In this document: piece after piece, positions 1,955-64,000 of the stretch
Layout: each line of letters opens with the position of its first letter
Position numbering within the stretch: the first letter of the stretch is position 1
Translations under genes and position numbers: made by a program
Notes under the pieces: generated by a model
Database searches by the model: none
Seen by the model: the letters and a program-made list of their open reading frames with translations, nothing else
What the model was told of the DNA's origin: nothing
DNA from: a filamentous cyanobacterium CCP2
GTDB lineage: Bacteria; Cyanobacteriota; Cyanobacteriia; Elainellales; Elainellaceae
Reading direction: 5' to 3'
Length of the DNA: 64,000 bases
Assembly (NCBI GenBank): GCA_003003615.1
Contig: PVWD01000004.1
Span: 1-64,000, forward strand

Positions 1955-4900
1955 ATGATTAAAATCACGCTAGCAACGAAACTGCTTGGAATGGTGCAAT
2001 GGATAGCACAAACTCCTGTTCCACCAGGCACAACCGTTACACCTGGTACGCCAGTTGTACCTCCTGAAACAACTTCTGTTTTGTTTTCAGGCCCTCAATT
2101 TTTTATTGCACTTGTTTCAGGTGTGCTGCTTGCTTTTGCCTTTCAGCTTGTGCTGACCAATCTTTCAGTGGCAGCCGGAGTCTCTTATCTGGGGCACTCC
2201 TCCAGTTCCAGTTCTGATTCTGACCATGAGTCGGGTGGTGGTATTTCAGTCCGCAAAATCGGGATGGGTGTCGGTATCTGGACGCTGATTACTGTGACGA
2301 TCGCCCTGTTTGCGGCGTGCTTTTTGGCAGTGCAGTTGAGCTTGCTGACTACGGCAGGGCTGGGGGCAATTGTGGGGCTGGTGATTTGGGCAGCCTATTT
2401 TTCGTTGCTGGTTTGGGTCAGTTCAACGACTGTTGGATCGCTGATTGGTTCAGTGGTTGGAGCTGCCACATCAGGTTTTCAAGCACTGTTAGGAACGGCA
2501 ACCGCTGCGATCGGGAGTCGGGCTGCAAAGCAACAAATGGTGTCTACGGCTGAGGCCGTCACCGCAGCAGTGCGAAATGAGCTAGGTTCTGGCATTGACC
2601 CAGATACAATTCGCCATTCTGTTGAAGATTATGTGCGCCGGATTCGTCTACCCGGTTTTGACACAGCAAAAATTCGTCGAGATTTTGAAGACCTGTTAAA
2701 CGATCCAGAAATTGCAACCCTGGCAGAAGACGATCGCCTTGGTCAAATCGATCGGCAAACCTTCGTGGATTTGATTAGCCATCGCACTGATTTTAGCTAT
2801 GAGGAAGTGAATCGGTTGGCTGATCTTTTAGAAGGAGTTTGGCGGCAAACGTTGGGTCGGCGGCGCAGAGTGGATTCCACCGCAGAGTTAACCGAATATT
2901 TACGTTCCACTCAGCCAGGACAGTTGCAAATTGCCGAACTCAATGCCAAGCTCGATCGGCTACTCGCTGAACAACAACGTCAGCCTCAAATGGGCGACCC
3001 GTCTGGGAGCGGATCTGGCGGCGGCATGATGCAACAGCCTATTCAGATGGGCATGAATGCACTCATTGGGATGCTGATGGGACGCAGTGACCTCTCCGAC
3101 TTGGATGTGGGAAAAATTGTCGATCGGCTGAAGAATGCACCAAGAGAGGTCGCGAAGCAATCGGATACTATCGTGCATCAGATTAAGGGCGATCGGGTCG
3201 AGGAAGAATATAGCCCGATTCGTGCTGATGTGGAAAACTATTTGCTGAACAAACCCTCCTGGCAAATGAATCAAGAGTCGATTGCTAGAGAGTTTCGTGA
3301 GGTAATCTATGATCCTGAAGCTGATCCGGCTGCGGTTGCTCAGCAGTTATCCAGGTTGAATCGATCTTACTTTGTGGAATTGCTGCAATCTCGCGGTTTG
3401 CTAACTCAAGAAAAAATTCAGCGTGTCGCTGATCAGCTAGAAGCCATTCGTCGGGAAGCGATAACGACTGCCCGGGCCGCTCAGGAACGCGAAATTGCTC
3501 TGGATTTGCGCGATCGGGTCAAAACCTATCTGTCTTTCACTCCAAAGGAGCAGCTTTACTCAGATGATGTTTTACCTGGGCTAAAAGCAATTATGGAGGA
3601 TAGAAACGCTGACTATGAAACCCTGTCTCATCGGTTAGCTCCTTACAAGCGAGCTGCCCTAGAGCAAGCTTTGATGCAGCGGCATGATATCTCCTATGAG
3701 GAGGCGCAGCCCATTCTAGATGCAATTGAGCGGACGCGCGATCGGGTTTTGTTTGAATCGGAAAGCTTTGATCAGCAAGCCAAACAGCGGTATGAGGAAT
3801 TCCGCTATCGCACGGAAGATTACTTGCGGAATACAGGCAAAGCAGAATTAGATCCGGAACGAATTAAGCAAGATTTACAAGTCTTGATTTCTGCTCCACA
3901 GGTGGGAATATCAATTTTGCGCTCCCATGCATCAGAATTCGATCGGGATACATTTGTGAAACTGTTGAGCCAGCGTGAAGATATTTCTGAAGCAGAAGCA
4001 AACCGCATCGTAGACCGAATTGAGTCTAACTGGTATACGCTAACTCACTCCCCCAGTATCGTTGTCGATACAGTGAAGGACACCTACAACCAAACCGTAA
4101 CTTCAATTTCAGATTACTTGCGGAATACGAATCTGGAAGAACTTGATCCGGAGGGTATTCAGCGGGATTTGACTCGGTTATTGGATGACCCACAGCAAGG
4201 GGCACTTGCTTTGCGGAGACGGCTTTCTCAAGTCGATCGAGAAACACTGGTACGGTTGTTGAGCCAGCGGCAAGATCTGACGGAAGAGCAGGTAAACCGA
4301 ATCATTGATCAGGTTTTGGCTGCCATTCAGCAAATCATTCGGGCACCTCGTCGCTTAGCATTGCGGGCACGGCAGCAAGTCCTTGATTTTGAAGCGAGCA
4401 TAGAAGACTATCTGCGGAATACTGAAAAAGAAGAGTTGAACCCGGAAGGAATTGAGCGGGATCTGCGGCTGTTGATGCAGCATCCAAATATTGGCATCCG
4501 CAATATCCGCGATCGGATTTCGCGATTTGACCGAGAAACGCTCATTGCTTTACTGGCGCAGCGTCAAGACATGACTCATCAAGAAGCAGAGCAGGTGGTT
4601 GCCCAAATCGAATCGGTACGCGATCGAATCTTGTCTCAAATGCAGCAGGTTCAGCAACGCATTCAAGAGATTATCGATCGGATTTTTGCCCGAATTCGGA
4701 ATTATCTCAATTCCCTCGATCGGCCTGAACTCAATTACGACAGCATTAAGCAGGATGTGCAGACGATGTTTGACGACCCGCAGGCCAGCTTTGATGTCTT
4801 GCGTAACCGTTTAAGCCAGTTCGATCGGAATACGTTAGTGGCTGTGCTTAGCTCTCGTAAAGAGATTTCTGAAGCAGATGCAAACCGCATCATTGACCAA

Positions 4901-5107
4901 ATTGAGTCGGCGCGGAACAATGTGCTTCAGCAAGCTGAGCGAATTCAAAGCGAAGCTCAAAGACGCTTGGAGATGGTCAAAATTCAAGCTCAACGGCAAA
5001 TGGAAGAAACCCGTAAAGCGGCTGAAGCGGCTGCTTGGTGGCTCTTTGCAACGGCTTTGGTTTCTGCGGTTGCATCGGCAGGAGCAGGTTCCCTGGCAGC
5101 ATTCTAA
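1955..5107 (+). CDS. Large membrane protein with seven ~98-residue tandem repeats
   Basis: The product (1050 residues) has no function I can assign. Residues ~40-180 form a hydrophobic module of about four helices containing GVGIWTLITVTIALF. This module is also seen in the small membrane protein at 24497. A Gly/Met-rich linker near residues 340-360 follows the first repeat. Repeats begin near residues 219, 422, 521, 618, 716, 814 and 912; from the second on the spacing is 97-99 residues. The later units share a pattern DYLRNT..EL.PE.I..DL, then DR.TLV.LLSQR, then an acidic helix ending in an Ile-rich IDQIE-like segment. Long charged helices join the units, and the protein ends in a Gly/Ala membrane segment (WWLFATALVSAVASAGAG). 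Start: ATG with AGGAG five bases upstream. Homologues may be labelled MFS transporter, but the topology does not support that. Confidence 0.85.
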   Translation: MIKITLATKLLGMVQWIAQTPVPPGTTVTPGTPVVPPETTSVLFSGPQFFIALVSGVLLAFAFQLVLTNLSVAAGVSYLGHSSSSSSDSDHESGGGISVRKIGMGVGIWTLITVTIALFAACFLAVQLSLLTTAGLGAIVGLVIWAAYFSLLVWVSSTTVGSLIGSVVGAATSGFQALLGTATAAIGSRAAKQQMVSTAEAVTAAVRNELGSGIDPDTIRHSVEDYVRRIRLPGFDTAKIRRDFEDLLNDPEIATLAEDDRLGQIDRQTFVDLISHRTDFSYEEVNRLADLLEGVWRQTLGRRRRVDSTAELTEYLRSTQPGQLQIAELNAKLDRLLAEQQRQPQMGDPSGSGSGGGMMQQPIQMGMNALIGMLMGRSDLSDLDVGKIVDRLKNAPREVAKQSDTIVHQIKGDRVEEEYSPIRADVENYLLNKPSWQMNQESIAREFREVIYDPEADPAAVAQQLSRLNRSYFVELLQSRGLLTQEKIQRVADQLEAIRREAITTARAAQEREIALDLRDRVKTYLSFTPKEQLYSDDVLPGLKAIMEDRNADYETLSHRLAPYKRAALEQALMQRHDISYEEAQPILDAIERTRDRVLFESESFDQQAKQRYEEFRYRTEDYLRNTGKAELDPERIKQDLQVLISAPQVGISILRSHASEFDRDTFVKLLSQREDISEAEANRIVDRIESNWYTLTHSPSIVVDTVKDTYNQTVTSISDYLRNTNLEELDPEGIQRDLTRLLDDPQQGALALRRRLSQVDRETLVRLLSQRQDLTEEQVNRIIDQVLAAIQQIIRAPRRLALRARQQVLDFEASIEDYLRNTEKEELNPEGIERDLRLLMQHPNIGIRNIRDRISRFDRETLIALLAQRQDMTHQEAEQVVAQIESVRDRILSQMQQVQQRIQEIIDRIFARIRNYLNSLDRPELNYDSIKQDVQTMFDDPQASFDVLRNRLSQFDRNTLVAVLSSRKEISEADANRIIDQIESARNNVLQQAERIQSEAQRRLEMVKIQAQRQMEETRKAAEAAAWWLFATALVSAVASAGAGSLAAF

Positions 5108-5213: not shown

Positions 5214-7736
5214 TTATGTAGTTTGCGCCAGTTTTAGAATGGCAGTGACTAACTCACTCGAATTGACAGGTTTTGCTAAATGAGTTTGGAATCCGGCGGC
5301 AAGGGCTTGCTTCTGATCATCTTCTCTGGCATAAGCAGTGAGGGCGATCGCTGGCGTGTTTCCGCCTTGTTCCGTCGTTAACGTTCTAATCCGCCGAATC
5401 AAAGAATACCCGTCTTCTCTGGGCATGCCAATATCGCTGACCAACACATCGGGGTGAAATTCTGTGAAGGCGGCAAAAGCTTGACTTGCCGATTCAGAAG
5501 TATAAACTTCAGCATTGTACTGCCTTAGCAAAAAGGACAGAAACTCGCGGGTATCCGGCTCATCATCGACAATCATAATTCGTAGGCCACTGAGGGCAGG
5601 ACGAGAACTGGAGAGCTGCTGGCGGACGGTTTCTAAGTCACTCTGTCTGGCTTCAGCCTCCCCCTGTTTTTGCAGAGGCAACATTATCGTGAAGGTTGAG
5701 CCTTGCCCTTCTCCCTGGCTCTCAGCATAAACGCTGCCTCCATGCAGTTCGACCAGGTGATGGACGATCGCCAATCCCAGCCCTAAGCCGCCCTGGGTGC
5801 GGGTCATGGAACTGTCTGCCTGACGAAAATATTCAAAAATATAGGGGAGAAAATCAGAACTGATGCCTTTCCCGGTGTCTTTCACCTGGATTTGTGCATG
5901 GGAACCAATTTTTTCCAGAAAAATATCAATTTTTCCGCCTTCTGGAGTGAATTTAATGGCATTGGATAGCAAATTCCAAATAATCTGCTGTAGGCGATTG
6001 GGGTCGCCCAAAATTATGCCAACGGTTGGATCAAGATGAGTTTGAATTTGGATCGTCTTGGTTTCGGCCGCCAGCCGCATTGTTTCGATCGCCGCTTCAA
6101 TGGAATTGGCCAAGTTCACCGGCAGCACTTCCAGTCTAAGTTTGCCGCGAAGAATCCGCGAGACATCCAGCAAATCTTCAATCAGTTGGGTTTGCAATCG
6201 GGCATTGCGTTCAATGGTTTGTAAGGCGCGAATGGTGGTTGCATGGTCAAACTGGCGGGAACAGAGAAGCTTTGCCCAACCCAAAATGGCATTGAGGGGC
6301 GATCGGAGTTCATGGGAAAGGGTCGCCAAAAACTCATCTTTAACCCGGTTAGCCCGCTGCGATTCCTGGTAAAGCCGCGCATTATCAATTCCCAGAGCCA
6401 CCCGATCTGATAAGCTTTGCAGGAAGTTGCGATCTTCAAACGTGTAAGGTTCCCCGCCTCGATCGCGGAACATGGCCAAAGTGCCCACTGCCCGCCCCCG
6501 AACGCACAACGGAGCGATGACAAAACTGCTGATACCAAAGCGTTCCAGGTAAGGAGCCGCCTCAGGCTTTAGCCAAGACTGTAGCTGATCTAGCAATGCC
6601 ACTGAAACTAAAAGGGGTTCGCCGGAGTCAAACACGCGGGCATAGATTCCCTCATCTGCAAGCTGCTGCAGGTCGAGCAATTCTTCAATCAGGGCACGGG
6701 CTTCTGGCTTACGATGATGCATGGCAGCCAGGTTTAGCCATTTTCCATCATCAGACAGCAAGCGAATGACGCAGCCATCGCCCACCAAATCTGCAATGTA
6801 CTGAGCCGTTGTGGTTAAAACCGCTTGAAAGTCTAAAATGGCCTCTGAGAAAGCCTGGGAAATTTCCGCCAAAATTTGGGAGTGAATCGCCTGCTTTTGG
6901 ATGCGCTTTTCCGCCTGCTTGCGATCGCTCACATCCATGTAAGCCCCAATTACCCCCCGAATCTTGCCCTCTTCATCCCTGAGCGGCACCGCTCTACCGT
7001 AGATATGGCGCACAGAACCATCCTCAAAGACAAGCTCTGCCTCTTCTTCGACAGCTTCCCCCGTTCGTCCTGCCTTTTGCATCGACAACTCTTCAAGGGG
7101 AATATCCTGCCCATTGCGTTGCACCTTAAAGGGAAAGGGATACACATTATCAGCAGGGGTTGCCGTCACAGTTTTCCCTGACTCCATTCGCATGAACTCG
7201 TAAGCAGTGCGGTTTGCTGTCATCTGATGGCACTGGGGGTCGTGGGCAATCCACACGGCGACTGGCGTAATTTCCAAAAACGCTTCCAGTTCTTCGGCCT
7301 TTGCCCGCGCCAAAGCTTCACTTTCCCGCAAAGCCACTTCTGCCTGTTTGCGCTCCGATCGCTCATGGGCTTCCCGCAGGGCTCGGTTTACCGATGGTAC
7401 TAACCGTCCGAGTCGCTGCTTCAGCACATAGTCAGTGGCACCGCTTTTCAGGGTTTCGATCGCCAACTCTTCGCCCAGGGTGGCCGAAACAAAAATAAAC
7501 GGGATTTCAGGATATTGCATCCGAGCCAGATCCAGGGCAGAAATGCCATCAAAAGAGGGCAAGGAGTAGTCGGCAAGAATCAGATCGATCGGCTGTTCTA
7601 CCAGGGCAGTTAGAAAGTCTTCTTGGGTTTCCACCCGCACCAACTCACAGGGAATGCCCCCCTCATTGAGATTGACCTGAATGAGTTCTGCATCAAGTTC
7701 GCTGTCTTCAAGTAGGAGAATACGCAGATGCTTCAT
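5214..7736 (-). CDS. Hybrid sensor histidine kinase (REC-PAS-GAF-HisKA-HATPase-REC)
   Basis: A soluble hybrid kinase of 840 residues with no membrane helix. The order is: receiver domain (1-120; acidic D11 and phosphoacceptor D56), coiled linker, PAS with PAC (~150-275), GAF (~285-450), dimerisation/phosphoacceptor domain with LSHELRSPLNAI, HATPase with N, G1 and G2 boxes (NLLSNAIKFT, DTGKGI, GGLGLGLAI) and a C-terminal receiver with phosphoacceptor D768 in LVSDIGMP. A receiver at each end allows it to accept and pass phosphate in a phosphorelay. It starts 11 bases after the Rcp1-like regulator, third in a minus-strand operon. Its input is unknown; the GAF lacks an obvious chromophore cysteine, so a light role is not supported. 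Its kinase and receiver halves closely resemble the hybrid kinase at 14077. Confidence 0.92.
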   Translation of the reverse strand: MKHLRILLLEDSELDAELIQVNLNEGGIPCELVRVETQEDFLTALVEQPIDLILADYSLPSFDGISALDLARMQYPEIPFIFVSATLGEELAIETLKSGATDYVLKQRLGRLVPSVNRALREAHERSERKQAEVALRESEALARAKAEELEAFLEITPVAVWIAHDPQCHQMTANRTAYEFMRMESGKTVTATPADNVYPFPFKVQRNGQDIPLEELSMQKAGRTGEAVEEEAELVFEDGSVRHIYGRAVPLRDEEGKIRGVIGAYMDVSDRKQAEKRIQKQAIHSQILAEISQAFSEAILDFQAVLTTTAQYIADLVGDGCVIRLLSDDGKWLNLAAMHHRKPEARALIEELLDLQQLADEGIYARVFDSGEPLLVSVALLDQLQSWLKPEAAPYLERFGISSFVIAPLCVRGRAVGTLAMFRDRGGEPYTFEDRNFLQSLSDRVALGIDNARLYQESQRANRVKDEFLATLSHELRSPLNAILGWAKLLCSRQFDHATTIRALQTIERNARLQTQLIEDLLDVSRILRGKLRLEVLPVNLANSIEAAIETMRLAAETKTIQIQTHLDPTVGIILGDPNRLQQIIWNLLSNAIKFTPEGGKIDIFLEKIGSHAQIQVKDTGKGISSDFLPYIFEYFRQADSSMTRTQGGLGLGLAIVHHLVELHGGSVYAESQGEGQGSTFTIMLPLQKQGEAEARQSDLETVRQQLSSSRPALSGLRIMIVDDEPDTREFLSFLLRQYNAEVYTSESASQAFAAFTEFHPDVLVSDIGMPREDGYSLIRRIRTLTTEQGGNTPAIALTAYAREDDQKQALAAGFQTHLAKPVNSSELVTAILKLAQTT

Positions 7737-8215: not shown

Positions 8216-10815
8216 TCCACTGCCTCCCCAGACTGTGGCAGGGAAAAATAAAAAGTAGCCCCTTGTTCCACAGCCCCTTCTGCCCAGACTCGCCCCCCAT
8301 GACGATGAATAATGCGCTGCACATTGGCTAGCCCAATTCCGGTTCCTTCAAACTGTTCAGCTTTGTGGAGCCGTTGAAACACCCCAAACAGTTTGTGAGC
8401 ATATCGCATATCAAACCCAACTCCGTTATCTCGGACAAAAATGATCACTTCACGACCATTATCGTCGTTCATGCTACCAATTTCGATCGTAGCTTCTGTC
8501 CGAGGACGGGTATATTTCACAGCATTTTCGAGCAAGTTATGCAAAACAATCCGCAGCAGCATCGGATCGGCCTGCACTTCGGGTAAGGGGTGAATTTGCC
8601 AGTGGATTGACCGATCGCACATATCCAGCTTTAAGTCGCGCTTGACCTCTTGCACAAGCAGGTTTAAGTCGATCGACGTGCAGCACATTTCAGTGCGACC
8701 CATCCGCGAGAAGGTCAACAAATTATCAATTAAAGTGCCTGCCTGTTTTGCTGTTTCTGAAATGATATTGAGATACCGTTGGCTAGTGGCATCCAGGGGA
8801 GCAGACTCTGTGTGTTTTTGTAATAGATCGACAAAGCCGCTAATGTGCCGCAGAGGGGCCCGCAGATCGTGGGAAACCGAGTAGGAAAAAGATTCTAGCT
8901 CTTTATTGGCAGCCTCTAGCTGAGCCGTCCGTTCTTGAACCCGCTGCTCCAGGGTTTCGTTGAACTGTCGAATTTCAGCTTCTGCTCGTTTTCGTTCCGT
9001 CAGGTCAACTAAAAAGCAAACGCAGCGATCGTCTGAGTTGGGCAACAAGGCAGCACCCATGAGCAAAGGAATGCGGCTACCATCTTTGCGAATGTATTCC
9101 TTTTCAAAGGGAGAACAGGCTCCTTTTTGTTTGATTTCAGCAATCACTCGCTCATCCTGCGGCAGGTATTCAGGTGGGGTCATTTGCAGCCAATCCAGCT
9201 TACCTGTGTGTAGGTCTTCTTGGGTGTAGCCGACCATCTCCAGAAAGGCCTCGTTGGCTTCGCTAATGTTTCCGTTAAAGTCTACAAAAATGACTCCAAT
9301 CATATTGGAATCAATTAACCGACGCACCCGCGCCTCACTTTCTGCTAGCTCATTTTCCAGACGTTTTCGATCGCTCAGATCAACCACAAACCCGATTACT
9401 TTTTTGCGATCGTCCAGCAGAACAGAACCCAGCAAAATTGGCACACGGCTACCATCTTTGCGAATGTATTCCTTCTCAAAGGGGGTGCAAACGCCTTTCG
9501 TTTCCAGTTCCATTACCGAATATCGACTCACCTCTGCATATTCCGGTGGAGTCATTTCCCGCCAGCGAATCCGGTTTTGCTCCAAATCTTCCCGCGTGTA
9601 ACCGATCATGTCTAAGAAGGCATCGTTCGCTTCCAGAATTGCCCCATTTAAGTCTGCTACAATCACCCCAATCACATTCGACTCAACCAACCGGCGGACT
9701 CTGGCTTCACTTTGGCGCAGTTCATCTTCCAACCGTTTTTGATCAGTCATGTCCAAAGCCATTCCTGCCAGCATTCGTTTTCCAGATGCATTCTCAATGG
9801 GAAATTTGCAAGAAAGCCAGTACCGTTCTCCTCCGGAATGGGGGGAAATTTCAAATCTTTGTAGCGGTTGTCCCGTTTTTAAAACGGTTTGGTCATGCTC
9901 TCGCCACTGAACGGTTGCAGCAGCAGGAAATAAATCGGCATCAGTTTTGCCCAGCAGAGCGGCTGCTTCTTGCCCCAAAAGCTGTTCAAAGGCGCGATTG
10001 ACAAAAATATAACGCCCCTCTGCATCTTTAACAAAAGCAGTTGTGGGGCTATAGTTCATAAAATTTTGGAATAGCTGCTGGCTTTCTTTTAACGCCATTT
10101 CAGCCTGCTTGCGATCGGTAATATCTGCGGCAGCACAGGTAATGCCGACCACCCGCCCATTTTCCTGGCGCAACGGTTCCACAATCAAATCGTAGCAGTA
10201 GCGTTTGCCGTTTAGCTGACAGGAAATTTCTTCACGGGCAGGTACTCCCGTTGCCAAAACTCGCTGCTTAATCGTTGTGACTGCCTCAGCATCAACTGGC
10301 GAAAGCAAGTCCCTGTCTGTTTTGCCCAACATTGTTTCAACAGAGCGGAAAGGAGGATTATGCACCCACTGGTAGCGCAAATCTTGATCTTGCTGGGACA
10401 AGGTAATAAAAGAATTGCTCAATGCCAAACGAAACCTTTCTTCACTAGCCTGAAATCTCAATAGGTTTAATTCAGCCCGTTGCTTTGCTAGTTTTAATTC
10501 GGAGCTTAATGAACTAATGAGAATTGCAACGAGCATGAACACGCCAAAGTAGATTAAAGAACCAGGGTCAGTGGTTTCAAACGAATAGAAAGGTGGAATA
10601 AAAAAGTAATTAACAAACACCACAGATAGTGCCGCACTGAGTAACCCTGCGCCTAACCCCCCATAGCGTGCCGCAATGGCCACCGCGCCATAAAACATGA
10701 TAAATAAGGCAGATGCAAACATCATCCGCAGCAGAAAGGTCAGCAATAACGCTATGGCAGTACTTAGAACAGCTAAACCATAGCGTAATAACTGAAGACG
10801 CAAGGGGGAGGGCAT
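8206..10815 (-). CDS. Membrane PAS-repeat sensor histidine kinase with KdpD-like (DUF4118) sensor
   Basis: A kinase of 869 residues. Residues 1-110 form the compact four-helix DUF4118 domain also found in KdpD (FYGAVAIAARYGGLGAGLL...NYFFIPP). About four PAS/PAC units follow (roughly 125-240, 250-365, 370-490, 495-610), the last two very similar to each other (VRRLIDSNMIGV / VRRLVESNVIGV). A coiled coil then leads into a phytochrome-type kinase core with SFSYSVSHDLRAPLRHISGF and an HATPase with NLLENAVKYT, DNGVGFD and EGTGIGLA. It is first in an operon with the Rcp1-like regulator (10-base overlap) and the hybrid kinase. There is no GAF or PHY domain, so it is not itself a phytochrome. Confidence 0.92.
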   Translation of the reverse strand: MPSPLRLQLLRYGLAVLSTAIALLLTFLLRMMFASALFIMFYGAVAIAARYGGLGAGLLSAALSVVFVNYFFIPPFYSFETTDPGSLIYFGVFMLVAILISSLSSELKLAKQRAELNLLRFQASEERFRLALSNSFITLSQQDQDLRYQWVHNPPFRSVETMLGKTDRDLLSPVDAEAVTTIKQRVLATGVPAREEISCQLNGKRYCYDLIVEPLRQENGRVVGITCAAADITDRKQAEMALKESQQLFQNFMNYSPTTAFVKDAEGRYIFVNRAFEQLLGQEAAALLGKTDADLFPAAATVQWREHDQTVLKTGQPLQRFEISPHSGGERYWLSCKFPIENASGKRMLAGMALDMTDQKRLEDELRQSEARVRRLVESNVIGVIVADLNGAILEANDAFLDMIGYTREDLEQNRIRWREMTPPEYAEVSRYSVMELETKGVCTPFEKEYIRKDGSRVPILLGSVLLDDRKKVIGFVVDLSDRKRLENELAESEARVRRLIDSNMIGVIFVDFNGNISEANEAFLEMVGYTQEDLHTGKLDWLQMTPPEYLPQDERVIAEIKQKGACSPFEKEYIRKDGSRIPLLMGAALLPNSDDRCVCFLVDLTERKRAEAEIRQFNETLEQRVQERTAQLEAANKELESFSYSVSHDLRAPLRHISGFVDLLQKHTESAPLDATSQRYLNIISETAKQAGTLIDNLLTFSRMGRTEMCCTSIDLNLLVQEVKRDLKLDMCDRSIHWQIHPLPEVQADPMLLRIVLHNLLENAVKYTRPRTEATIEIGSMNDDNGREVIIFVRDNGVGFDMRYAHKLFGVFQRLHKAEQFEGTGIGLANVQRIIHRHGGRVWAEGAVEQGATFYFSLPQSGEAVECS

Positions 10816-21316: not shown

Positions 21317-22360
21317 CTATTTCATGGATGCAGACATTTGTTGCTGCAAGCGGTCTTTCGCAGCTTTAAATTCTGTGGCAAGCTGCTCACTCTGCTCACT
21401 GGAGCAGTTGTTGCGAATTGCTGTGAACATTGTGCTTTCCTCTTGGCGGACATGATCCATAACAATGTCCTTCAGGCGATTCACAGCATCTTTAAATCCT
21501 TGGGTTCCGGGATTCGTTGCTTTGATTTGATCCAGCATCGTCTTCATTTGTGCTTGCTCATCATAGAGTTCTTGCACATCACTGTCGCCATAAAAAGGAC
21601 GCACTGCCGGATAAACAACTTGCTCTTCCGCTTCAGCGTGAACCATCAGGTCTTTGTACAGCTGACCAAAGTACTCCTCAATCTTACGAGGATCATCAGA
21701 GTTAGCAATTTCGCCAAACAAGACATTCACCTTCTGGTGATCCATCCGAATCACATCTTGCAGGTTCATGTCAGACTTATCAGAGGACTGAGTCATTACG
21801 CTGCCTGCAACACCCGATAGTGCAGCAACTGCATCCTGAACCCTTGCCCACAGACCTTGATCAGCCTCTTGTCCGGTGAGTTCTCTTACACCCAAAACCT
21901 CTAAAACGCCCTTGAGTTGCTCTTGGTGGGCCCGGTTCTCAAAGTTAACCGTGTTAATGGGGGTAATTGCCGCTTCAACATCGGCTCCTACCTTTTGCGC
22001 TGCTTTGTGGATCAGCAAGCCTGTCATTACCTGTTGATGCTTCAGGGCTTCATGCTGGAAAACCTTCTCAAACAGAGAAAGCTGGGAACCAGACATCATT
22101 TCTTCGGCTTTTTGAATCATCTGGTTTACGGTTTCAGAAGGCTCTGCCCGCACACCATATTGCACGATCGCCGTATCTAAAACACCTAAATTCTTTTGAT
22201 CGTCTTCCAACATGCTTTGAAAGCGCTCACGCACCTTTTGGTCGGAAACCGATGTAATGAAACGCTTTTCATTTGTAATGAGAAAATCTTGAACAGATCT
22301 CATCTCTGCTAGCTTTCTAGCGATCGAGAGCCGTTTTGTATCATCAAGTGTCGATACCAT
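21317..22360 (-). CDS. Hemerythrin-domain protein with helical N-terminal half
   Basis: A soluble, all-helical protein of 347 residues. The C-terminal half (~205-330) carries the hemerythrin/HHE pattern of iron ligands: DHQKVNVLF, then HAEAEEQVVYPAVRP, then DHVRQEESTMF. Such domains bind a di-iron centre used for O2, NO or redox sensing or for iron storage. The N-terminal half (1-185) is a second helical bundle resembling ferritin-like tail-stress proteins (FEKVFQHEALKHQQVMTGLLIHKAAQ). GGAG precedes the ATG by eight bases. Neighbouring genes suggest an envelope or oxidative stress context (inference). Confidence 0.88.
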   Translation of the reverse strand: MVSTLDDTKRLSIARKLAEMRSVQDFLITNEKRFITSVSDQKVRERFQSMLEDDQKNLGVLDTAIVQYGVRAEPSETVNQMIQKAEEMMSGSQLSLFEKVFQHEALKHQQVMTGLLIHKAAQKVGADVEAAITPINTVNFENRAHQEQLKGVLEVLGVRELTGQEADQGLWARVQDAVAALSGVAGSVMTQSSDKSDMNLQDVIRMDHQKVNVLFGEIANSDDPRKIEEYFGQLYKDLMVHAEAEEQVVYPAVRPFYGDSDVQELYDEQAQMKTMLDQIKATNPGTQGFKDAVNRLKDIVMDHVRQEESTMFTAIRNNCSSEQSEQLATEFKAAKDRLQQQMSASMK

Positions 22361-24359: not shown

Positions 24360-24496
24360 TCCTTAAACAGCAAACAGTAAAACTAGATTAGGGAATGCTT
24401 CTTTACCAAGTCAAAGTACCGTAAAGTTTTACCCTGATGTAGCTTTTCTGAAATCATCTGTTGAACTTTAAGACTAAACTCAGGAGAAATCAAATC

Positions 24497-25177
24497 ATGA
24501 CCTACGGTGATCAGCCTTACCGCGAACCAGAACGCCGAATTGTTGACCGTCCAGTTGCAGCACCTGCTGTGGTTGACTACCACGATCGAGTCCGTTGGGG
24601 CCCCATTATTGCGGGATTGTTCCTTGCAATTACCTCACAACTTGTTTTAAGTGGAATTGGAGCCGCGATCGGTTTATCAGCAATTGCCGGTGCAGATAAT
24701 CCTCAGGCTGCTGCTGCCGATGCAGGAACAGGAGTTGGGATCTGGTCAATTATTAGCTTATTAATTGCCCTGTTTTTGGGTGGATGGTTACTGACTCGCC
24801 TCTGTGGCCCCATGAACCGGAATACTGCCCTTTTGAATGGTACTGTTCTCTGGGCAACAACGATCGCCCTCAGTGCTTGGCTGTTGACGAGTGGTGTAGC
24901 GGGTGCGTTTGGTGTCATTGGAGCTAACTTAGGTGAGATTGTTAACCAGGCTCAAACTGGAACCGCAGGTGCCCCGGCCGAAGGAGTGACAGAAGAACAG
25001 ATTCGGCAAGTGGCAGAGAATGCCGCGACTGCTGGTTGGTCGTTTGCATTTGGCTCATTACTAGGATTGATTGCCACATTGGTTGGAGCAGCCTTGGGGG
25101 CACGCACTCCACGCCAGCCAGTAGTTGCAACTCAGCAAGTTCCTCCTGGTGATGTAGACAGACCCTACACCCGTTAG
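24497..25177 (+). CDS. Small polytopic membrane protein ('PhnA-like' family name)
   Basis: A protein of 226 residues with a basic N-terminus (EPERRIVDRP), then VRWGPIIAGLFLAITSQLVLSGIGAAIG, GVGIWSIISLLIALFLGGWLLTRL, a third helix pair around TVLWATTIALSAWLL and a last helix near the C-terminus (GLIATLVGAALGA). Proteins with WG.I.AG....Q..L...G.giG and G.GIW..... are often named PhnA-like although they have no phosphonate role. The same module forms the N-terminus of the repeat protein at 1955. AGGAG lies ten bases before the ATG. A terminator follows. Confidence 0.82.
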   Translation: MTYGDQPYREPERRIVDRPVAAPAVVDYHDRVRWGPIIAGLFLAITSQLVLSGIGAAIGLSAIAGADNPQAAAADAGTGVGIWSIISLLIALFLGGWLLTRLCGPMNRNTALLNGTVLWATTIALSAWLLTSGVAGAFGVIGANLGEIVNQAQTGTAGAPAEGVTEEQIRQVAENAATAGWSFAFGSLLGLIATLVGAALGARTPRQPVVATQQVPPGDVDRPYTR

Positions 25178-48741: not shown

Positions 48742-49734
48742 AATCATGCTTTCAATTCGGGCACCATTCACTAAATACCTGAATAAATCATCTATCACCG
48801 CATCCGCAGCCAAGGGATTTCCACCTCTCCAGGTTGGGTAATTCACTGGATAAACTTGATTCTGTTGCACAGCCCTCAGATTCTTCCACAGTGGGTTTTG
48901 TTTCAGCGATTCTAGTTTCTGTGTAGATTCCTCACCATCGGTTGCAACAAACAAAATATCACCATCAATATCCATCAGTCGTTCCTCCGAAAGCGATGTA
49001 ATTCCGCCCGCAATGGGAACTGCTTGAGCAGAAGGACGGCGTACCCCAACATCAGCTAGAATGCTGCCGTTAAACGAATTCTGTAAGTCAACGTCGATCG
49101 TGCCGCAGCAAATATGCACAAACGAGATTTCTAGTTCTTGAACCCGCTCCCCCAAAGCCGCCTTTAAAGAATCAATTCGTTGGTGATAATTTTCCCAAAC
49201 CTGCTCTGCCTCCTCGGTTTTACCCAGCACTTCAGCCACAAAATTAAAATGCTCACGCCAGGATGGGTATCCTTCCCAATCGTCTGCTACGGTGGGTGCA
49301 ATTTGAGAAAGTTGAGGATAAATGGCTTCAGTGGAATATTTGATGCCAATAATCAAATCAGGTTTTAATGCCAGCACTTTTTCCAGGCTAGGCTGTTCCT
49401 CTTTGCCAAGAATCTCAATCGATTCTAGATGTTCTGCTAGATAGGCAGGCGGCTCGTCAAAGTAGACAATGGAAGCGATCGGTTTAACGCCCAAAGCCAG
49501 CGCATCGCCCAAGGTAGGTACACTCAATGCAATCACCCGTTGAGGTTGATTGGGAACACAGGTTTCCCCCAGTGCATGCCGAATCATGCGGCAATCCGCA
49601 GTCCCAGAAGAGGAAGGAAGTTGAACCGATCGCCCACTACAGGCTGATACAATTCCGAAAGCTAGAATGACCAGAAAGATGAATCGAAGCAAACGAAGAA
49701 GGTTCATCATAGCGTGTATGTTGCTGAATCCCAT
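48727..49734 (-). CDS. Iron-siderophore ABC transporter binding lipoprotein (FecB/FhuD-like)
   Basis: A periplasmic solute-binding lipoprotein of about 335 residues. The signal (LLRFIFLVILAFGIV) ends in lipobox VSAC. The mature protein has the class III pattern: QPQRVIALSVPTLGDALALGVKPIAS, LEKVLALKPDLIIG, IAPTVADDW, LMDIDGDILFVATD. The ATG at 49734 overlaps the receptor's stop by one base; ATGs at 49710 and 49707 give a shorter signal. Directly after the TonB receptor in the same operon, so both probably handle one ferric siderophore. Its ABC permease and ATPase are not in the window. Confidence 0.9.
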   Translation of the reverse strand: MGFSNIHAMMNLLRLLRFIFLVILAFGIVSACSGRSVQLPSSSGTADCRMIRHALGETCVPNQPQRVIALSVPTLGDALALGVKPIASIVYFDEPPAYLAEHLESIEILGKEEQPSLEKVLALKPDLIIGIKYSTEAIYPQLSQIAPTVADDWEGYPSWREHFNFVAEVLGKTEEAEQVWENYHQRIDSLKAALGERVQELEISFVHICCGTIDVDLQNSFNGSILADVGVRRPSAQAVPIAGGITSLSEERLMDIDGDILFVATDGEESTQKLESLKQNPLWKNLRAVQQNQVYPVNYPTWRGGNPLAADAVIDDLFRYLVNGARIESMISVFF

Positions 49735-52310
49735 CAAAACTGTACAGAGATGTTTGCCAACACGGTGAGAGGAGCTTGGGGCGTAATGAAAAATCCTTGT
49801 GTGTTGTAGTACTCAACATCGAAAAGATTTTTGATGTTTACAGCAGCTTGCCAATTATCGCGTCGATAAAAGAGACGGGCATCAGTACGGAAATAGGAAG
49901 GAAGTTGAACATCTGTATTGGGTAATCGCGCTTCGCGTTCATCAACGAAAACTAGACCCAGACCAAATCCTAACCCTTGTAAATCTCCACTCTGAAGTTC
50001 ATAGGTCGTCCATAGACTAGCCGTATTTCTGGGAATTCCAGCCAGACGATCGCCTTCTGGGATATCGTTATCTTCGCTGACAAAAGCATCAGTAAGGGCA
50101 TAGGTGGCAATGATATTCCAACCGGGCAACACCTCTCCCGTCAGGTCGAACTCAATCCCTCGGCTGGTTTGCGCTCCGGTTTGAATGCTGAAATTAGGAT
50201 CTTCTGGGTCAGTCGTTAGAACGTTTCGTCGAGTGAGATGGTAGAGTGCCAGGGTCGCAGAGAGGCGATCGTCAAAAAATTCCTGTTTGACTCCAATTTC
50301 AAATTGTTCTCCCCGTTCAGGTTCAAAGACTTCTCCGGTACGGCTGCTGCCCCCAAAAATATTGGGTGTGAAGGCATTCGACCAATTGAAGTAGAGCGAC
50401 GTATCCTCACCGGGTTGATACACTAACCCCAAGCGAGGCGAAAAAGCAGTATCGGATTCCTCGTTATTAGTGATATCGTTCAGGGTGTCCCGATAGAAGG
50501 AATCATTAAAATCGAGCCGTCCTCCCGCTAACACAATCAAATCGGGCGTGAGATAGATTAAATCCTGTACATAAATACCAATATTTCGAGTGCCATATTC
50601 TTCAAAGAAGCTCGGCTCAAACGCTCCTGGCTCGGCACCATAATCCGGATCAAAGATATCAATCGGATCGAGAGGTGCATTAAAAAAGTCATAGGCAAAT
50701 TTGTAGCGAGCGTATTCAACGCCAAATAGGACATTATGTGCGATTGATCCGGTGTTGAATTCGCCAATCACTTCCGTTTGAACAGAATAGTTTTCTTGGA
50801 ATTCATCTGTTCGATTAGCCTGACGGGTAAGCGTTCGACCATCCGGTTCGAGGAACGGTGCTGAGAAATTGCCCAGCGTAACTTCATTAATGCCACCATT
50901 AATGATCAAACCACCAAACCCCTGACGGATACGCCACTGATCATTAAAGCGGTGCTCGAAGTTGTAGCCAAAGTAATAGGAATCAAACTCTGCACGGCTA
51001 AAATCGGGTTCACCTAGAAATCGGCTAATCGGCAAATCAAAGATAACATCAGAGGGAAAAAAGCCGCGATCGAATACATAATCGTAGTTTTGATATTCAA
51101 ACTCTGTGGTGAGGGTGGTACGCGGACTAATGTTCCAGGTTAGCACTGGAGCCACAAAAACACTCTGGCTTTCATTAAAGTCACGAAAACTATCAGCATT
51201 GGTATAGGCAAAATTGAGCCGATACAGCAAAAAATCATCTTCGGTAAGGGGGCCTGTCAGGTCAACGGTAGAGCGGTAGAATCCATAGTTGCCGATCGTG
51301 CCATCAACTTCATAACGCGGCTCTGCCAGAGGACGTTCTGTAACCGTATTGACGACTCCACTCAGGTTAAACCCGCCTCCATACAGCACAGAAGCTGGGC
51401 CTCTCAAAAATTCAACTCGCTCCACATTCGCCGGATCGCGGGGACTGATGAACGTGAAGTCGCGAAATCCATTGCGGAAACTTTCCCCAGTATTGAATCC
51501 CCGGATGTAGTAGTCATTCGATGGCAACCCGCCATACCCCGAATAGGGTTCCACACCGGGAACATTGTCCGCCAGTTCAGTTAAACGAACGATTTGTCGA
51601 TCGTCAATGACTTGGCGAGGAATCACTTGAAGCGTCAGGGGAATATCGCTTAAGGGTGCTTCAATGCGGGTTCCTGTGGTTGCAGTTGAAGGGTTATAGC
51701 CCTCATCCTGTTCTCCTGCAACGACAATCTGAATGGCTTCCTCCTCCGTGCTGGCAGTTTCCATTCCCGGAGTTATACTCAACACAAATGACTGTGAACT
51801 TGTATTCACCTGAGCCGTTGGGGGAGCCTCTGTTCCCGTAATGGCAATGCGAACGCCATCTCCACGCGGGACAACCGTCACCAAGGCGATCGATTCTGCG
51901 GGGTTGGCTGCCTGAAAGGTTTCTCCGTCTGGGAGAGCAAGTACCACATTGGGAATATCGGCAATCAGGGCATTTCCGACGATCGAAGTCGTAACAGCAG
52001 GCAACTCTCCTGTCGTTTCCAGCACGAGTTCTAATTCATCGGCGATCGGATTCACTTGAACACCCGTAATTTGAATTATGGACTGAGCCAGCCATTCTTC
52101 AACGGTAGAGGCAGACGGCTCCATCTCCTGCAAACGGGGCATCTCATCCCCCTGAACCACTTCGGGTAATTTATCCTGTTGCGACTCAGATACAGCATGA
52201 CGGGTTAAACCGCCATTCCCTGAAACTGCTCCCTCTGCCCAAACCGGAAGGGCGATCGGTGCAATTAATCCAGTTATCCACAAGCCCAACAGCAGTTTTG
52301 TTTTCCCCAT
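49734..52310 (-). CDS. TonB-dependent siderophore receptor with AMIN domain
   Basis: An outer-membrane ferric-siderophore receptor of 858 residues. Signal peptide ends near PVWAEG; an AMIN domain (~80-180, ITGVQVNPIADELELVLETTGELPA...VRIAITGTEAPPTA) may bind peptidoglycan; then a TonB-box-like stretch (IQIVVAGEQDEGYNP), plug (~210-330, IPLTLQVIPRQVIDDRQ...VEFLRGPASVLYGGG) and 22-strand barrel ending in Phe. The AMIN front is typical of cyanobacterial siderophore receptors. The ATG at 52310 follows GGAGG by four bases; a GTG at 52322 would precede the site. Direct repeats at 52418-52453 lie upstream. Confidence 0.93.
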   Translation of the reverse strand: MGKTKLLLGLWITGLIAPIALPVWAEGAVSGNGGLTRHAVSESQQDKLPEVVQGDEMPRLQEMEPSASTVEEWLAQSIIQITGVQVNPIADELELVLETTGELPAVTTSIVGNALIADIPNVVLALPDGETFQAANPAESIALVTVVPRGDGVRIAITGTEAPPTAQVNTSSQSFVLSITPGMETASTEEEAIQIVVAGEQDEGYNPSTATTGTRIEAPLSDIPLTLQVIPRQVIDDRQIVRLTELADNVPGVEPYSGYGGLPSNDYYIRGFNTGESFRNGFRDFTFISPRDPANVERVEFLRGPASVLYGGGFNLSGVVNTVTERPLAEPRYEVDGTIGNYGFYRSTVDLTGPLTEDDFLLYRLNFAYTNADSFRDFNESQSVFVAPVLTWNISPRTTLTTEFEYQNYDYVFDRGFFPSDVIFDLPISRFLGEPDFSRAEFDSYYFGYNFEHRFNDQWRIRQGFGGLIINGGINEVTLGNFSAPFLEPDGRTLTRQANRTDEFQENYSVQTEVIGEFNTGSIAHNVLFGVEYARYKFAYDFFNAPLDPIDIFDPDYGAEPGAFEPSFFEEYGTRNIGIYVQDLIYLTPDLIVLAGGRLDFNDSFYRDTLNDITNNEESDTAFSPRLGLVYQPGEDTSLYFNWSNAFTPNIFGGSSRTGEVFEPERGEQFEIGVKQEFFDDRLSATLALYHLTRRNVLTTDPEDPNFSIQTGAQTSRGIEFDLTGEVLPGWNIIATYALTDAFVSEDNDIPEGDRLAGIPRNTASLWTTYELQSGDLQGLGFGLGLVFVDEREARLPNTDVQLPSYFRTDARLFYRRDNWQAAVNIKNLFDVEYYNTQGFFITPQAPLTVLANISVQF

Positions 52311-52417
52311 AGTTCCTCCCACGACACTCTTTCACCCACTCACAATGCCAAAAGCAGGTAAATATGAATGGGAATAAATCTCATCTAATGAGGATAGGGG
52401 ATCAGGGCGATCGGATT

Positions 52418-52453
52418 TTGCCCGAAACGGATTTTTATTTGCCTAAAACGGAT
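52418..52453. promoter_or_regulatory. AraC-type direct repeat upstream of the TonB receptor
   Basis: TTGCCCGAAACGGAT (52418) and TTGCCTAAAACGGAT (52439) are 21 bases apart, two helical turns, as expected for an AraC/PchR dimer. They lie 108-143 bases upstream of the receptor ATG and touch the stop codon of the araC-type gene. Confidence 0.65.
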
Positions 52454-52466
52454 CACGCCCGTTTTA
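52444..52466. repeat. Inverted repeat at the end of the AraC-type gene
   Basis: TAAAACGG (52444-52451) and CCGTTTTA (52459-52466) form a perfect 8-bp inverted repeat spanning the AraC stop. The left arm is shared with the second direct repeat. It could be an extra inverted half-site or a weak stem; no T-run follows. Confidence 0.45.
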
Positions 52467-53475
52467 AGCCCATTCGATAAGTTCTGGGGCTAACGTCGAA
52501 CTGTCGCTTAAACGCATCACAAAAACGGCTTTGGCTGGTGTATCCCACCCTTTGTGCAACCCCTGCCACACTTAAGTTTGAGTCGGCTAAAAGTTGCTTA
52601 GCCTGAATCATCCTCTGCGTTTGCAAGTAGCCAAACACGGTCGTTCCAAAAACCTGACGAAATCCTTGCTTGAGCTTGTAATCATTCAACCCGACTTGCC
52701 GCGCTAAATCTAGCAATGACGGAGGATACTCCAGACTTTGGATTAATATCTCTCTAGCGTGGTGCAGTCGTTCAATCTCATCTGGACGTAGTGAACGAGG
52801 GAGTTTATTGATTGAATTGGTTTGGTGCTCTGTCCACTGGTAAATCTGTAACGCCAGCAGTTCTAAAACTTTGCTTTCCAGATAAAGCCGTTTCATTGTT
52901 CCCTGGTAAGGGCACTCTAAAATTTGCTGTAGTGCTGTCTGCATCGCAGGCGTAATCCGCCCGATCGATTGATGAAACCGATCGCCTTCATCTCCTTCTA
53001 GCAAACGCTGAAGTGGTAACGGCAGTTTACTGTTTTCTGAGTCAAATATGGTTAACAAATGAGGATCAAATTCAAGGCGAATGAGATGCATTCGCTGATT
53101 GGCAAAAAACTGCTCTGTTTCCAGGATATCGGGTAGGAAAAACAAATAGTTGTAGCCTGCTTTCTCAATGTAATCTTCAGGAATTCCTGGAACGTTTGGC
53201 GTTAATACCCGATGAAAGCCATCCAAATAAAACTTGGAAACTAAAGTTTTATAGTTCGAGTGATCGGATTCTTGACTTAAGTCAGCATAGTAGTAATCAT
53301 CGATCCTTTCAAAGCAGAGTTCAGGACGAAAGGACATCAGCCAAAATTGTTCCCTAGCAAACTGATGTTCATGCTGCTCAATGCGATCGTATCCGTCACA
53401 GCATTCGACGACCACACTCTGACTTAAATTTTGCTGCCGTAATTCGGAAAACTCCTGTTCATAAAGCTTTGTCAT
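52453..53475 (-). CDS. AraC family regulator (PchR-like)
   Basis: A regulator of 340 residues with a C-terminal AraC DNA-binding domain: first helix-turn-helix PSLLDLARQVGLNDYKLKQGFRQVFGTTVFGYLQTQRM, second NLSVAGVAQRVGYTSQSRFCDAFKRQFDVSPRTYR. The N-terminal ~230 residues are a sensing domain of the type seen in PchR, which activates receptor genes when ferric siderophore is bound. It sits between sucrase-ferredoxin and the TonB receptor on the same strand; the direct repeats at its 3' end are its probable target. Confidence 0.92.
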   Translation of the reverse strand: MTKLYEQEFSELRQQNLSQSVVVECCDGYDRIEQHEHQFAREQFWLMSFRPELCFERIDDYYYADLSQESDHSNYKTLVSKFYLDGFHRVLTPNVPGIPEDYIEKAGYNYLFFLPDILETEQFFANQRMHLIRLEFDPHLLTIFDSENSKLPLPLQRLLEGDEGDRFHQSIGRITPAMQTALQQILECPYQGTMKRLYLESKVLELLALQIYQWTEHQTNSINKLPRSLRPDEIERLHHAREILIQSLEYPPSLLDLARQVGLNDYKLKQGFRQVFGTTVFGYLQTQRMIQAKQLLADSNLSVAGVAQRVGYTSQSRFCDAFKRQFDVSPRTYRMGLKRA

Positions 53476-61466: not shown

Positions 61467-64000
61467 TCAGAATTGCCAGGAAACCGTACCTCTTACCTCA
61501 AAAGGCGCACCGGGTACAACTGCAAACCGATTTTGTGAACCTGCAAAATACTCAGTGTCGAACAAATTTTTGAAATTCAACGCAGCTCGAAAATTATCAC
61601 GGTTGTAGTAAAGGGCTGCATCGAACCGAGTATAGCCTGGAATCATAAAACTATTAGCCAGATCCCCCGCACGTTGATCCACAAAAAAGACTCCTGCACC
61701 GAAACCAAGTCCTCTTAAATCACCCGATTGAATAGTGTAGGTTGTCCATAAACTTGCTGAATTGCGAGGCGCATTATTGAGTTGATTACCGACCTCGAAA
61801 TTATTATCTCTAGTAATTGATGCATCCAGATAGGAATAGCCAGCAATGACATTCCAACCAGGCAAGATTTCACCAGCGATATCAAAATCAATTCCTCGTC
61901 CTCTTTGTTCACCCACTTGAATCGAAAAATTAGGATTGTCAGGATCAGGAGTGGTGATATTGCTTCGGGTAATGTCATAGGCAGCCAGGGTTGAGGAAAG
62001 GCGACCGTCTAGAAAATCGGCTTTAACTCCAATTTCGTACTGGGTTCCTCTGGTTGGCTCAAATGGCGTATTTGTGGCATTTCGCCCTCCGACTGGAACA
62101 AACGATCGGGAGTAACTGGCATAGAGCGATAAAATCTCATTCGGTTGATAAACAATTCCAAACCGTGGAGAAAAAGCAGTATCGTCAATATCTTGTCTGA
62201 AGTCTCCAAACCGTTCCTCAGAGTTAACGTAATCAAATCTACCGCCCAATAACAAGATAAGGTTATCCAATACATTAATTTGGTCTTGTACATAGATACC
62301 TAGCGTTCTTTGATCTTGACGCTCACCCCCCAAGTAAAAATCGTAGCCACCTGTATAGGTAATGGTATCGTAGTCTGGCTCAAAAATGTCGAGTACCCCT
62401 CCAGTCAGGGCTTGCCGTCCTTCAGGAGCGGAAGATCCAAATCGGGCACTATTGCTTGCCAACTCTACACCAACCAACAGGGTGTGATCGATCGACCCTG
62501 TGCTAAATCCCCACGTCAAATCATTTTGAAAGGTATAGGTTTCAAAGAATTGCTCACCAAAATAAGCTTCAATTTCAACCGTGCGATTGTCATCTCGCAA
62601 CCGGGTGATTTGCGATGTTCCTTCCCGATCGGACTCAAAGCTAGTAGTGTACCGAAAGGCACTACGAATGGCAAGGTTATCAGAAAACTCGTGATCGAGG
62701 TAAAGATAGGCGCGGGTTTCGTCAAAGTTATTTCTAGAGAATCTGGGATCATATAAGGCTCGACTCAAGGGTAAATCGGCTGGGCGATCGTCACCGTTCA
62801 ACACAATCAAACCGCGATCGAATGTGCGTCGGTCTTGCAGATAAGAAGCCTCTAAGGTCAGCGTTGTATCTGCACCAATTCGCCACGCTAAGGTGGGAGC
62901 AATAAAATAACGTCTTGAATCGGCAAAATCTCGAAAGCTATCGGTATCTTCGTAGACCAAATTCAAACGGTAAGCCAGCGCACCATCATCCGTTAATGGG
63001 CCGGAAAAATCTAGTGTAGGGCGATAAAAGTTAAAGTTTCCAGCCGTAAAGTCAATATCGTAGTAAGGCACGGTAAGGGGTCTTTTGGAAACAAGATTAA
63101 TCACTCCTCCCGGTTCACCCTGTCCAAATAAAACCGAAGCAGGGCCTCTAAGGACTTCAACCCGCTCAATATTTGCCGTTTCTTGCACAGTACGATTAAC
63201 AAAGGAACCACCACCGCCCGCATCTTCCCTTAACCCATTTCTAAACTGTGTCGCACCAAATCCTCGAATTCGGAAATCCTGCCCTCGATTCCCAAAAGAA
63301 CTGGAGAAAGTTACTCCACTTGCGTTACGCAGTATCTCATCGAGTCGAACGGCTCCCTGATCTTCAATCACCTGACGAGGAATCACTGTAATGGAGGCTG
63401 GGATATCGCGCAAGGGAGTATCCGTCCGTGTAGCAGTGGTGGCTCTGGAAGGGTTATAGCCGTCATCTTGTTCACCCGTCACGACTACCTGGATCGCATC
63501 TTCGCCAGTGCCAGCCGCTTCCGTTCCCGGAACCACGCTGAGAACAAATTCCTGACCTTCCCCGCGCACGTCTGCCATTGGGGGAGCCTCTACCCCTGTA
63601 ATGGCAACGCGCACTCGATTATCTGGCAAACTCGTCACGCTCACCAGCGCAATCCCCTCGATCGGATTTGCTTGAGAAAACTCATCTCCATTGGGCAGTG
63701 CCAATGTGACTCCAGAAAAATCAACAATCAAAGCATTACCCACCGATCGCATTGCGGGAGTTGGCAGTTCGCCCTCGGCAACGTCCAGCACCACCTGTAA
63801 ACCGGATTCCGTCACCTCCACCCGAACTCCTGTCACCTGGACGAGAGCCTGAGCGATCTGAGCCATCCAATCTGCGATCCTGGTAGCGGGTTGCTCCAGT
63901 TCACTCAGTTGAGGAATTGTCACCGTTGCAGGATCAGAGGTGAGAGCGGACGCAGAAATCGATTCACCTTCGCTTCCAGCTTCCACATCTGCGGTTTCTG
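61467..64000 (-). CDS. TonB-dependent siderophore receptor with AMIN domain (5' end outside window)
   Basis: A second outer-membrane siderophore receptor, at least 844 residues visible. The frame is open to the window edge with no stop, and the signal peptide is missing, so the true start lies past 64000; a GTG at 63984-63986 is only an internal codon. The AMIN domain (VTGVRVEVTESGLQVVLDVAEGELPT...VRVAITGVEAPPMADV), plug (IPASITVIPRQVIEDQGAVRLDEIL...VEVLRGPASVLFGQGEPGG) and barrel ending VSWQF are complete. GQGEPGG is the usual catecholate/hydroxamate receptor form, whereas the first receptor has GGGFNLSG at this place. Operon with the binding protein 11 bases downstream. Confidence 0.93.
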   Translation of the reverse strand, partial: ETADVEAGSEGESISASALTSDPATVTIPQLSELEQPATRIADWMAQIAQALVQVTGVRVEVTESGLQVVLDVAEGELPTPAMRSVGNALIVDFSGVTLALPNGDEFSQANPIEGIALVSVTSLPDNRVRVAITGVEAPPMADVRGEGQEFVLSVVPGTEAAGTGEDAIQVVVTGEQDDGYNPSRATTATRTDTPLRDIPASITVIPRQVIEDQGAVRLDEILRNASGVTFSSSFGNRGQDFRIRGFGATQFRNGLREDAGGGGSFVNRTVQETANIERVEVLRGPASVLFGQGEPGGVINLVSKRPLTVPYYDIDFTAGNFNFYRPTLDFSGPLTDDGALAYRLNLVYEDTDSFRDFADSRRYFIAPTLAWRIGADTTLTLEASYLQDRRTFDRGLIVLNGDDRPADLPLSRALYDPRFSRNNFDETRAYLYLDHEFSDNLAIRSAFRYTTSFESDREGTSQITRLRDDNRTVEIEAYFGEQFFETYTFQNDLTWGFSTGSIDHTLLVGVELASNSARFGSSAPEGRQALTGGVLDIFEPDYDTITYTGGYDFYLGGERQDQRTLGIYVQDQINVLDNLILLLGGRFDYVNSEERFGDFRQDIDDTAFSPRFGIVYQPNEILSLYASYSRSFVPVGGRNATNTPFEPTRGTQYEIGVKADFLDGRLSSTLAAYDITRSNITTPDPDNPNFSIQVGEQRGRGIDFDIAGEILPGWNVIAGYSYLDASITRDNNFEVGNQLNNAPRNSASLWTTYTIQSGDLRGLGFGAGVFFVDQRAGDLANSFMIPGYTRFDAALYYNRDNFRAALNFKNLFDTEYFAGSQNRFAVVPGAPFEVRGTVSWQF

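Follow-up and report, generated by a model that had tools for sequence, protein, structure and literature searches.

What does a very large membrane protein, built mostly from one repeated unit, do in a cyanobacterial cell, and by which route has it been formed? The question is raised by a gene of the filamentous cyanobacterium CCP2, which lies in the 64,000-nucleotide stretch of contig PVWD01000004.1 that was analysed here as a whole and is called the window. The coding frame of this giant gene is simple to place: the ATG start at 1955 is preceded by GGAG, and an alternative TTG start lying 12 codons upstream of it is possible and not needed. The parts of the gene, together with a small homologue encoded in the same window, are collected in Table 1, in which residue numbers refer to the giant protein.

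Table 1. Coordinates of the giant gene, its parts and the small homologue in the window.
Feature	Position	Strand	Basis
Giant gene, 1,050 aa, 118 kDa, pI 5.2	1955..5107	+	ORF intact
TM1 (residues 47-80)	2093..2194	+	hydropathy, model helix, homology to TM1 of small 4-TM family
TM2 (residues 97-129)	2243..2341	+	hydropathy, model helix, homology to small 4-TM family
TM3 (about residues 134-160)	2354..2434	+	hydropathy, model helix, homology to small 4-TM family
Repeat unit 1 (residues 223-298)	2621..2848	+	repeat profile
Repeat unit 2 (residues 312-395), with Gly/Ser/Met-rich insertion	2888..3139	+	self-comparison, repeat profile, relatives' lengths
Gly/Ser/Met-rich insertion in unit 2 (residues near 345-365)	about 2987-3049	+	length-variable part of rod
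Repeat unit 3 (residues 426-500)	3230..3454	+	repeat profile, two-unit model
Repeat unit 4 (residues 521-596)	3515..3742	+	repeat profile, two-unit model
Repeat unit 5 (residues 620-694)	3812..4036	+	repeat profile
Repeat unit 6 (residues 718-792); best Pfam HU match at 762-803, second hairpin	4106..4330	+	repeat profile, Pfam
Repeat unit 7 (residues 816-890)	4400..4624	+	repeat profile
Repeat unit 8 (residues 913-989)	4691..4921	+	repeat profile
Long charged helix (residues 973-1026), from unit 8 to TM4	4871..5032	+	full-length model
TM4 (residues 1027-1048), final helix of membrane module	5033..5098	+	small-family profile
Small 4-TM homologue, separate gene, module without strap; 238 aa from TTG 24461, 226 aa from ATG 24497	24461..25177	+	

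A previous reading of this DNA, made from the letters alone (the sequence-only reading), had described seven units of a tandem repeat of about 98 residues. Self-comparison of residues 200-1010 gave the strongest offset at 98 residues (z 8.3), followed by 196 and 294, and units scored against one another at up to z 33 with shuffled sequence as the control; the tandem repeat of this length is thus confirmed, and the similarity between its units is significant. A repeat profile was built on units 5-8 from 40 family members, in which the window protein's own units 5-8 are among the rows, and the independent test is given by units 1-4. With this profile eight units were detected in the protein, with domain E-values from 5e-38 to 5e-07. 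The starts of the seven units proposed before agree with the profile, but the count has to be raised to eight, unit 2 having been overlooked because it is a weak unit into which a Gly/Ser/Met-rich stretch is inserted. In all 39 relatives compared, units 6 and 7 have the exact length of 98 residues, and the length of the unit-2 region seen in the window is matched in just 1 of the 39, so the phase of the rod is mostly fixed with one site left free to vary. The two halves of a unit could not be aligned with significant similarity, and the idea that the unit was born from one duplicated hairpin was therefore dropped.

The unit was then compared with known families. The NCBIfam and PDB sequences gave nothing usable for it, and no family of Pfam or NCBIfam covers the whole unit. 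The sole Pfam match above cut-off in the window protein was to PF00216 (HU), at model positions 3-44 of 90, and it falls on the second helical hairpin of the unit (DRxTLVxLLSQRxDLSEExxNRIIDQIE); the same family was matched by all 40 members scanned. The statement of the sequence-only reading that the unit has no named domain is thus right for the unit as a whole, with a partial exception in its second hairpin, and the Pfam check of the repeat run yielded this partial match and nothing larger. Membership of HU/IHF was rejected, since the hairpin alone matches and the DNA-binding part is missing: the match ends at position 44, and in the two-unit model described below there are no strands which could correspond to the beta-sheet body and arms of HU. 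The Pfam matches to apolipoprotein and YtxH lie under the curated cut-off where one is given and were taken as generic amphipathic-helix matches. A PADLOC search gave no match, and an anti-phage defence reading was dropped.

The full-length AlphaFold2 model was poor overall (pLDDT 58) and good at residues 420-625. A separate AlphaFold model of two units (residues 417-629), for which the alignment had 138 in-register rows with the unit pairs 5-6 and 7-8 included, reached pLDDT 94.5 and pTM 0.80, and the structure prediction proposed earlier has in this way returned a confident helical fold. In this model a unit contains four short helices; where it ends, an unbroken helix of 44-47 residues leads on towards the following unit. 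When it was searched against the PDB the best match had an E-value of 1.0, and the TM-scores listed, when normalised to the query, all stayed below 0.3. The modelled fold is novel in the sense that no solved structure of the PDB, to which the comparison was limited, is like it. The repeat unit belongs to no sequence family and has no similar solved structure.

How the rod is held in the membrane was analysed through the small 4-TM homologue. Its 238-aa protein matches the N-terminus of the giant (BLAST E 1.6e-8), and its family, which has no Pfam or NCBIfam name, occurs in cyanobacteria; remote relatives exist outside this phylum, one of them encoded on an Azospirillum plasmid. The small-family profile matched TM1-3 of the giant in order (columns 47-157, E 5e-10), and the C-terminal helix was matched separately and again in order (columns 179-213) with a score of 30.7, whereas 200 column permutations gave no score above 23.5. 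The probability of the C-terminal helix as a single match is modest (59%); over 91 relatives, 89 such C-terminal matches were counted, and their register is the same in almost every case. On this profile evidence one four-helix module is made up of the N-terminal helices, as TM1-3, and of the C-terminal helix, as TM4; because both ends match one small family in order, the rod is read as an insert of about 850 residues in the TM3-TM4 loop. For this architecture taken by itself, a double-tethered insert within one 4-TM module, our confidence is high. The sequence-only reading had placed a four-helix module at the N-terminus and a Gly/Ala helix at the C-terminus, with a rod that may be tethered at both ends. 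The membrane helices, the terminal helix and the two tethers are all retained, but the N-terminal part consists of three TM helices and an uncertain N-terminal helix, the terminal helix is by the profile TM4 of the same module, and the two anchors are parts of one split module and not independent.

Natural variants of this arrangement are also present. In L207 (370 aa) TM1-3, one unit and TM4 follow each other, and in L057 (1,227 aa) ten units lie between TM3 and TM4. The plasmid search gave one Azospirillum match to the giant and none to the small protein; in the Azospirillum relative L211 the TM3-TM4 loop gives a weak, suggestive match to the HU-like hairpin (5.6 bits).

In membrane proteins positive charge marks the cytoplasmic side, which is known as the positive-inside rule. 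The mean R+K of the giant is about 10 on the side of the rod and about 2.5 on the opposite side, and in the small family the corresponding means are about 3 and 9, so that the bias is reversed. By this charge bias and the rule the strap is predicted on the cytoplasmic side, and the small homologue is predicted to be inverted in the membrane relative to the giant. The cytoplasmic location of the rod, which had been suggested before, is in this manner supported as probable. Cysteine is absent from the rod in 87 of 92 rows.

Of the 386 cyanobacterial genomes in the sample, 57 (40 of 143 genera) carry relatives of the giant, and the repeat profile alone retrieved the identical set of listed genomes with no extra ones. 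The relatives split into clades A and B at 100/100 support, both of which are present in several genomes; the clades are ancient paralogues which are often both kept. In the genome of the window the clade-A copy is the window gene and the clade-B copy (L055) lies on another contig. The same genome has L056 (5792-7030; on contig C336), a repeat-only protein of 412 aa in which two units are present but no membrane part; three copies of a WSTWG-like motif occur in its tail. The giant is present in 32 of the 37 genomes having the small protein, a co-occurrence which is inflated by shared ancestry. At L054 of genome G064 the giant gene appears split (5375-7609 and 9252-10076, ORFs of 744 and 274 aa) and is probably a decaying copy; the sampled congeners of that genome are without a giant gene.

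The neighbours of the window gene are an SDR oxidoreductase, a DoxX-like protein and a hybrid histidine kinase. Of 91 clade-A loci, 64 have at least one hli (high-light-inducible) gene upstream; none was found in the 23 clade-B loci or beside the window gene. These hli genes are directed away from the giant gene where orientation was tabulated, and the divergent arrangement with HLR1 sites can be seen for example in the clade-A loci L036, L103 and L137. HLR1 sites at hli genes are bound by RpaB (PMC6331805). With at most one mismatch, HLR1 occurs between hli and the giant gene in 47 of the 64 clade-A loci, as compared to 5 of 570 shuffled sequences. After a tblastn rescan just one truncated locus had HLR1 without hli; since the motif is otherwise absent where hli is absent, it cannot be credited to the giant gene, and the RpaB site is unassignable as the gene's own regulator. 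Giant or small copies also have genes for DUF2382, PRC-barrel, YflT, hemerythrin and Dps-type ferritin proteins in their vicinity, and in L206 the giant and small genes are adjacent, tail to tail.

Some further observations were made around these loci. In three genomes (window 21317-22360, L210 2731-3768, and L204) a hemerythrin-domain gene lies close to that of the small 4-TM protein, and the best NCBIfam match of the hemerythrin-domain protein, below cut-off, is to the PA2171 family ribosome-binding persister protein. In 18 clade-A loci a conserved run of genes including a Ras-like small GTPase is found upstream of hli (L103 2051-6731, L137 2129-6671, L141 2269-6953). By their translations, two proteins of the window are TonB-dependent siderophore receptor-like (49734-52322 and 61467-63986), each adjoining a likely iron-siderophore binding protein, and an AraC-type regulator is located at 52453-53475.

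The explanation which we prefer, and hold tentatively, is that the giant is a membrane scaffold with a role in stress, the link to stress being drawn from the gene neighbourhood. Tandem amplification of the helical unit would have filled the TM3-TM4 loop of a four-helix membrane protein, and the eight units would together make a strap in the cytoplasm, stiff and segmented, which starts and finishes at one membrane module and is flexible at unit 2. On the thylakoid or plasma membrane such a strap may act as a spacer or structural scaffold whose binding surfaces recur along its length, and it may be needed mainly when the cell is under stress from light, oxidation or other causes. The small homologue, predicted inverted, is a candidate antiparallel partner. 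The eight units, the split module and the variants with 1, 8 and 10 units argue for a scaffold, as do the continuous joining helices of the confident two-unit model, the fixed phase of 98 residues, the charge bias which places the rod inside and the co-occurrence of the small protein. The stress role is suggested by hli upstream of most clade-A copies and by the DUF2382, PRC-barrel, YflT, hemerythrin and Dps-type neighbours. Against it, hli is missing at the window and at all clade-B loci, HLR1 follows hli and not the giant, and the neighbours vary among lineages; we infer the shape of the strap, as the full-length model is poor.

The membrane module could instead be the working part, as a small 4-TM channel or transporter gated by a strap which senses crowding, membrane bending or a cytoplasmic ligand. 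The conservation of the module in proteins without the strap and the adjacency of the two genes in L206 fit with this, and within the same idea the giant and the small protein may form an antiparallel heterodimer, by analogy with YdgE/YdgF, paired 4-TM homologues with opposite charge bias (PMC3962082). No transporter or channel family of Pfam was matched, however, and we consider gating rather unlikely. A stronger version, in which the eight-unit strap reaching from TM3 to TM4 of an antiparallel giant-small pair would be a mechanical or ligand-sensing lever on the module, is a long shot; if it were true, it would be a new design of sensor or gate, obtained by tandem duplication within one loop.

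It is distinctly unlikely that the giant belongs to the cytoskeleton or septum of filamentous cyanobacteria, like SepT or ZicK/ZacK, and acts in cell shape or at cell-cell junctions. Long, membrane-anchored helical proteins of such kind do exist (PMC10653889, PMC7002697), and the named holders of the giant are mostly filamentous. The exceptions include Gloeocapsopsis, which is no filament former, the gene is missing from many sampled genomes, and its neighbours are stress genes and not division genes. The giant is also not SepT (All2460), a protein with a TerB-C domain and a pair of TM helices at its N-terminus (PMC10653889); by Pfam no TerB-C domain is present in the giant, and weak TerB matches were obtained in 5 of 40 members.

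The hairpin suggests another role, that of tying a partner protein or the nucleoid to the membrane, with each HU-like hairpin pairing with an HU-type or similar hairpin. The N-terminal hairpin of HU is its dimerisation element, and it is this part which all scanned members match. The match nevertheless leaves out the DNA-binding arms, the rod is acidic (142 D+E vs 114 K+R), and such hairpins can converge, so that the likeness may come from common descent or from convergence; a tether of this type is highly doubtful. We give next to no credence to a cyanobacterial relative of chloroplast Tic110, a kinship suggested by a general resemblance (a long helical rod and TM helices at the N-terminus) and rejected because the Tic110 model (PF16940) has no match in the giant gene, the best match of the genome lying elsewhere and below cut-off, with control genomes matching also, and because among the matches listed by sequence or by fold there was none to a Tic110 structure.

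Membrane-anchored helical-repeat scaffolds are already known as a kind, and in a brief literature search no published description was found of this repeat family or of its expansion within a small membrane protein's loop. The interest of the case is that it concerns a conserved membrane protein of about 118 kDa, without usable annotation and often in two copies, across many cyanobacteria. The tandem growth inside one loop can be traced through the natural variants, and both the origin of large repeat proteins within membrane proteins and the role of a double-tethered strap for photosynthetic or envelope membranes become testable.

The proposed strap can finally be placed beside known systems. 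With the HU/IHF N-terminal hairpin it shares the second hairpin of the unit, which matches HU above the Pfam cut-off, but the giant has no beta arms or DNA-binding part, is acidic and repeats the hairpin within a membrane protein. Spectrin-type rods offer a working resemblance, as tandem helical units of about 100 residues, a continuous joining helix and fixed spacing would give a stiff segmented rod. The spectrin repeat is a three-helix bundle of about 106 residues, whereas the unit here has four short helices and a long joining helix; Foldseek listed spectrin chains among its poor matches, with E above 4 and a TM-score to query of 0.15-0.22, and membership is not supported, given the four-short-helix unit of the model and the lack of a significant structural match. 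SepT (All2460) and other coiled-coil-rich cyanobacterial proteins are likewise membrane-anchored, mostly helical and typical of filamentous cyanobacteria (PMC10653889), and the giant is set apart from the described architecture of SepT by its split module of TM1-3 and C-terminal TM4, and by its regular repeat. A parallel for the possible pairing is given by the antiparallel pairs of YdgE/YdgF type: no family match links them to the present proteins, but in both cases two homologous 4-TM proteins of one genome have opposite charge bias, and here one candidate partner bears an insert of about 850 residues.
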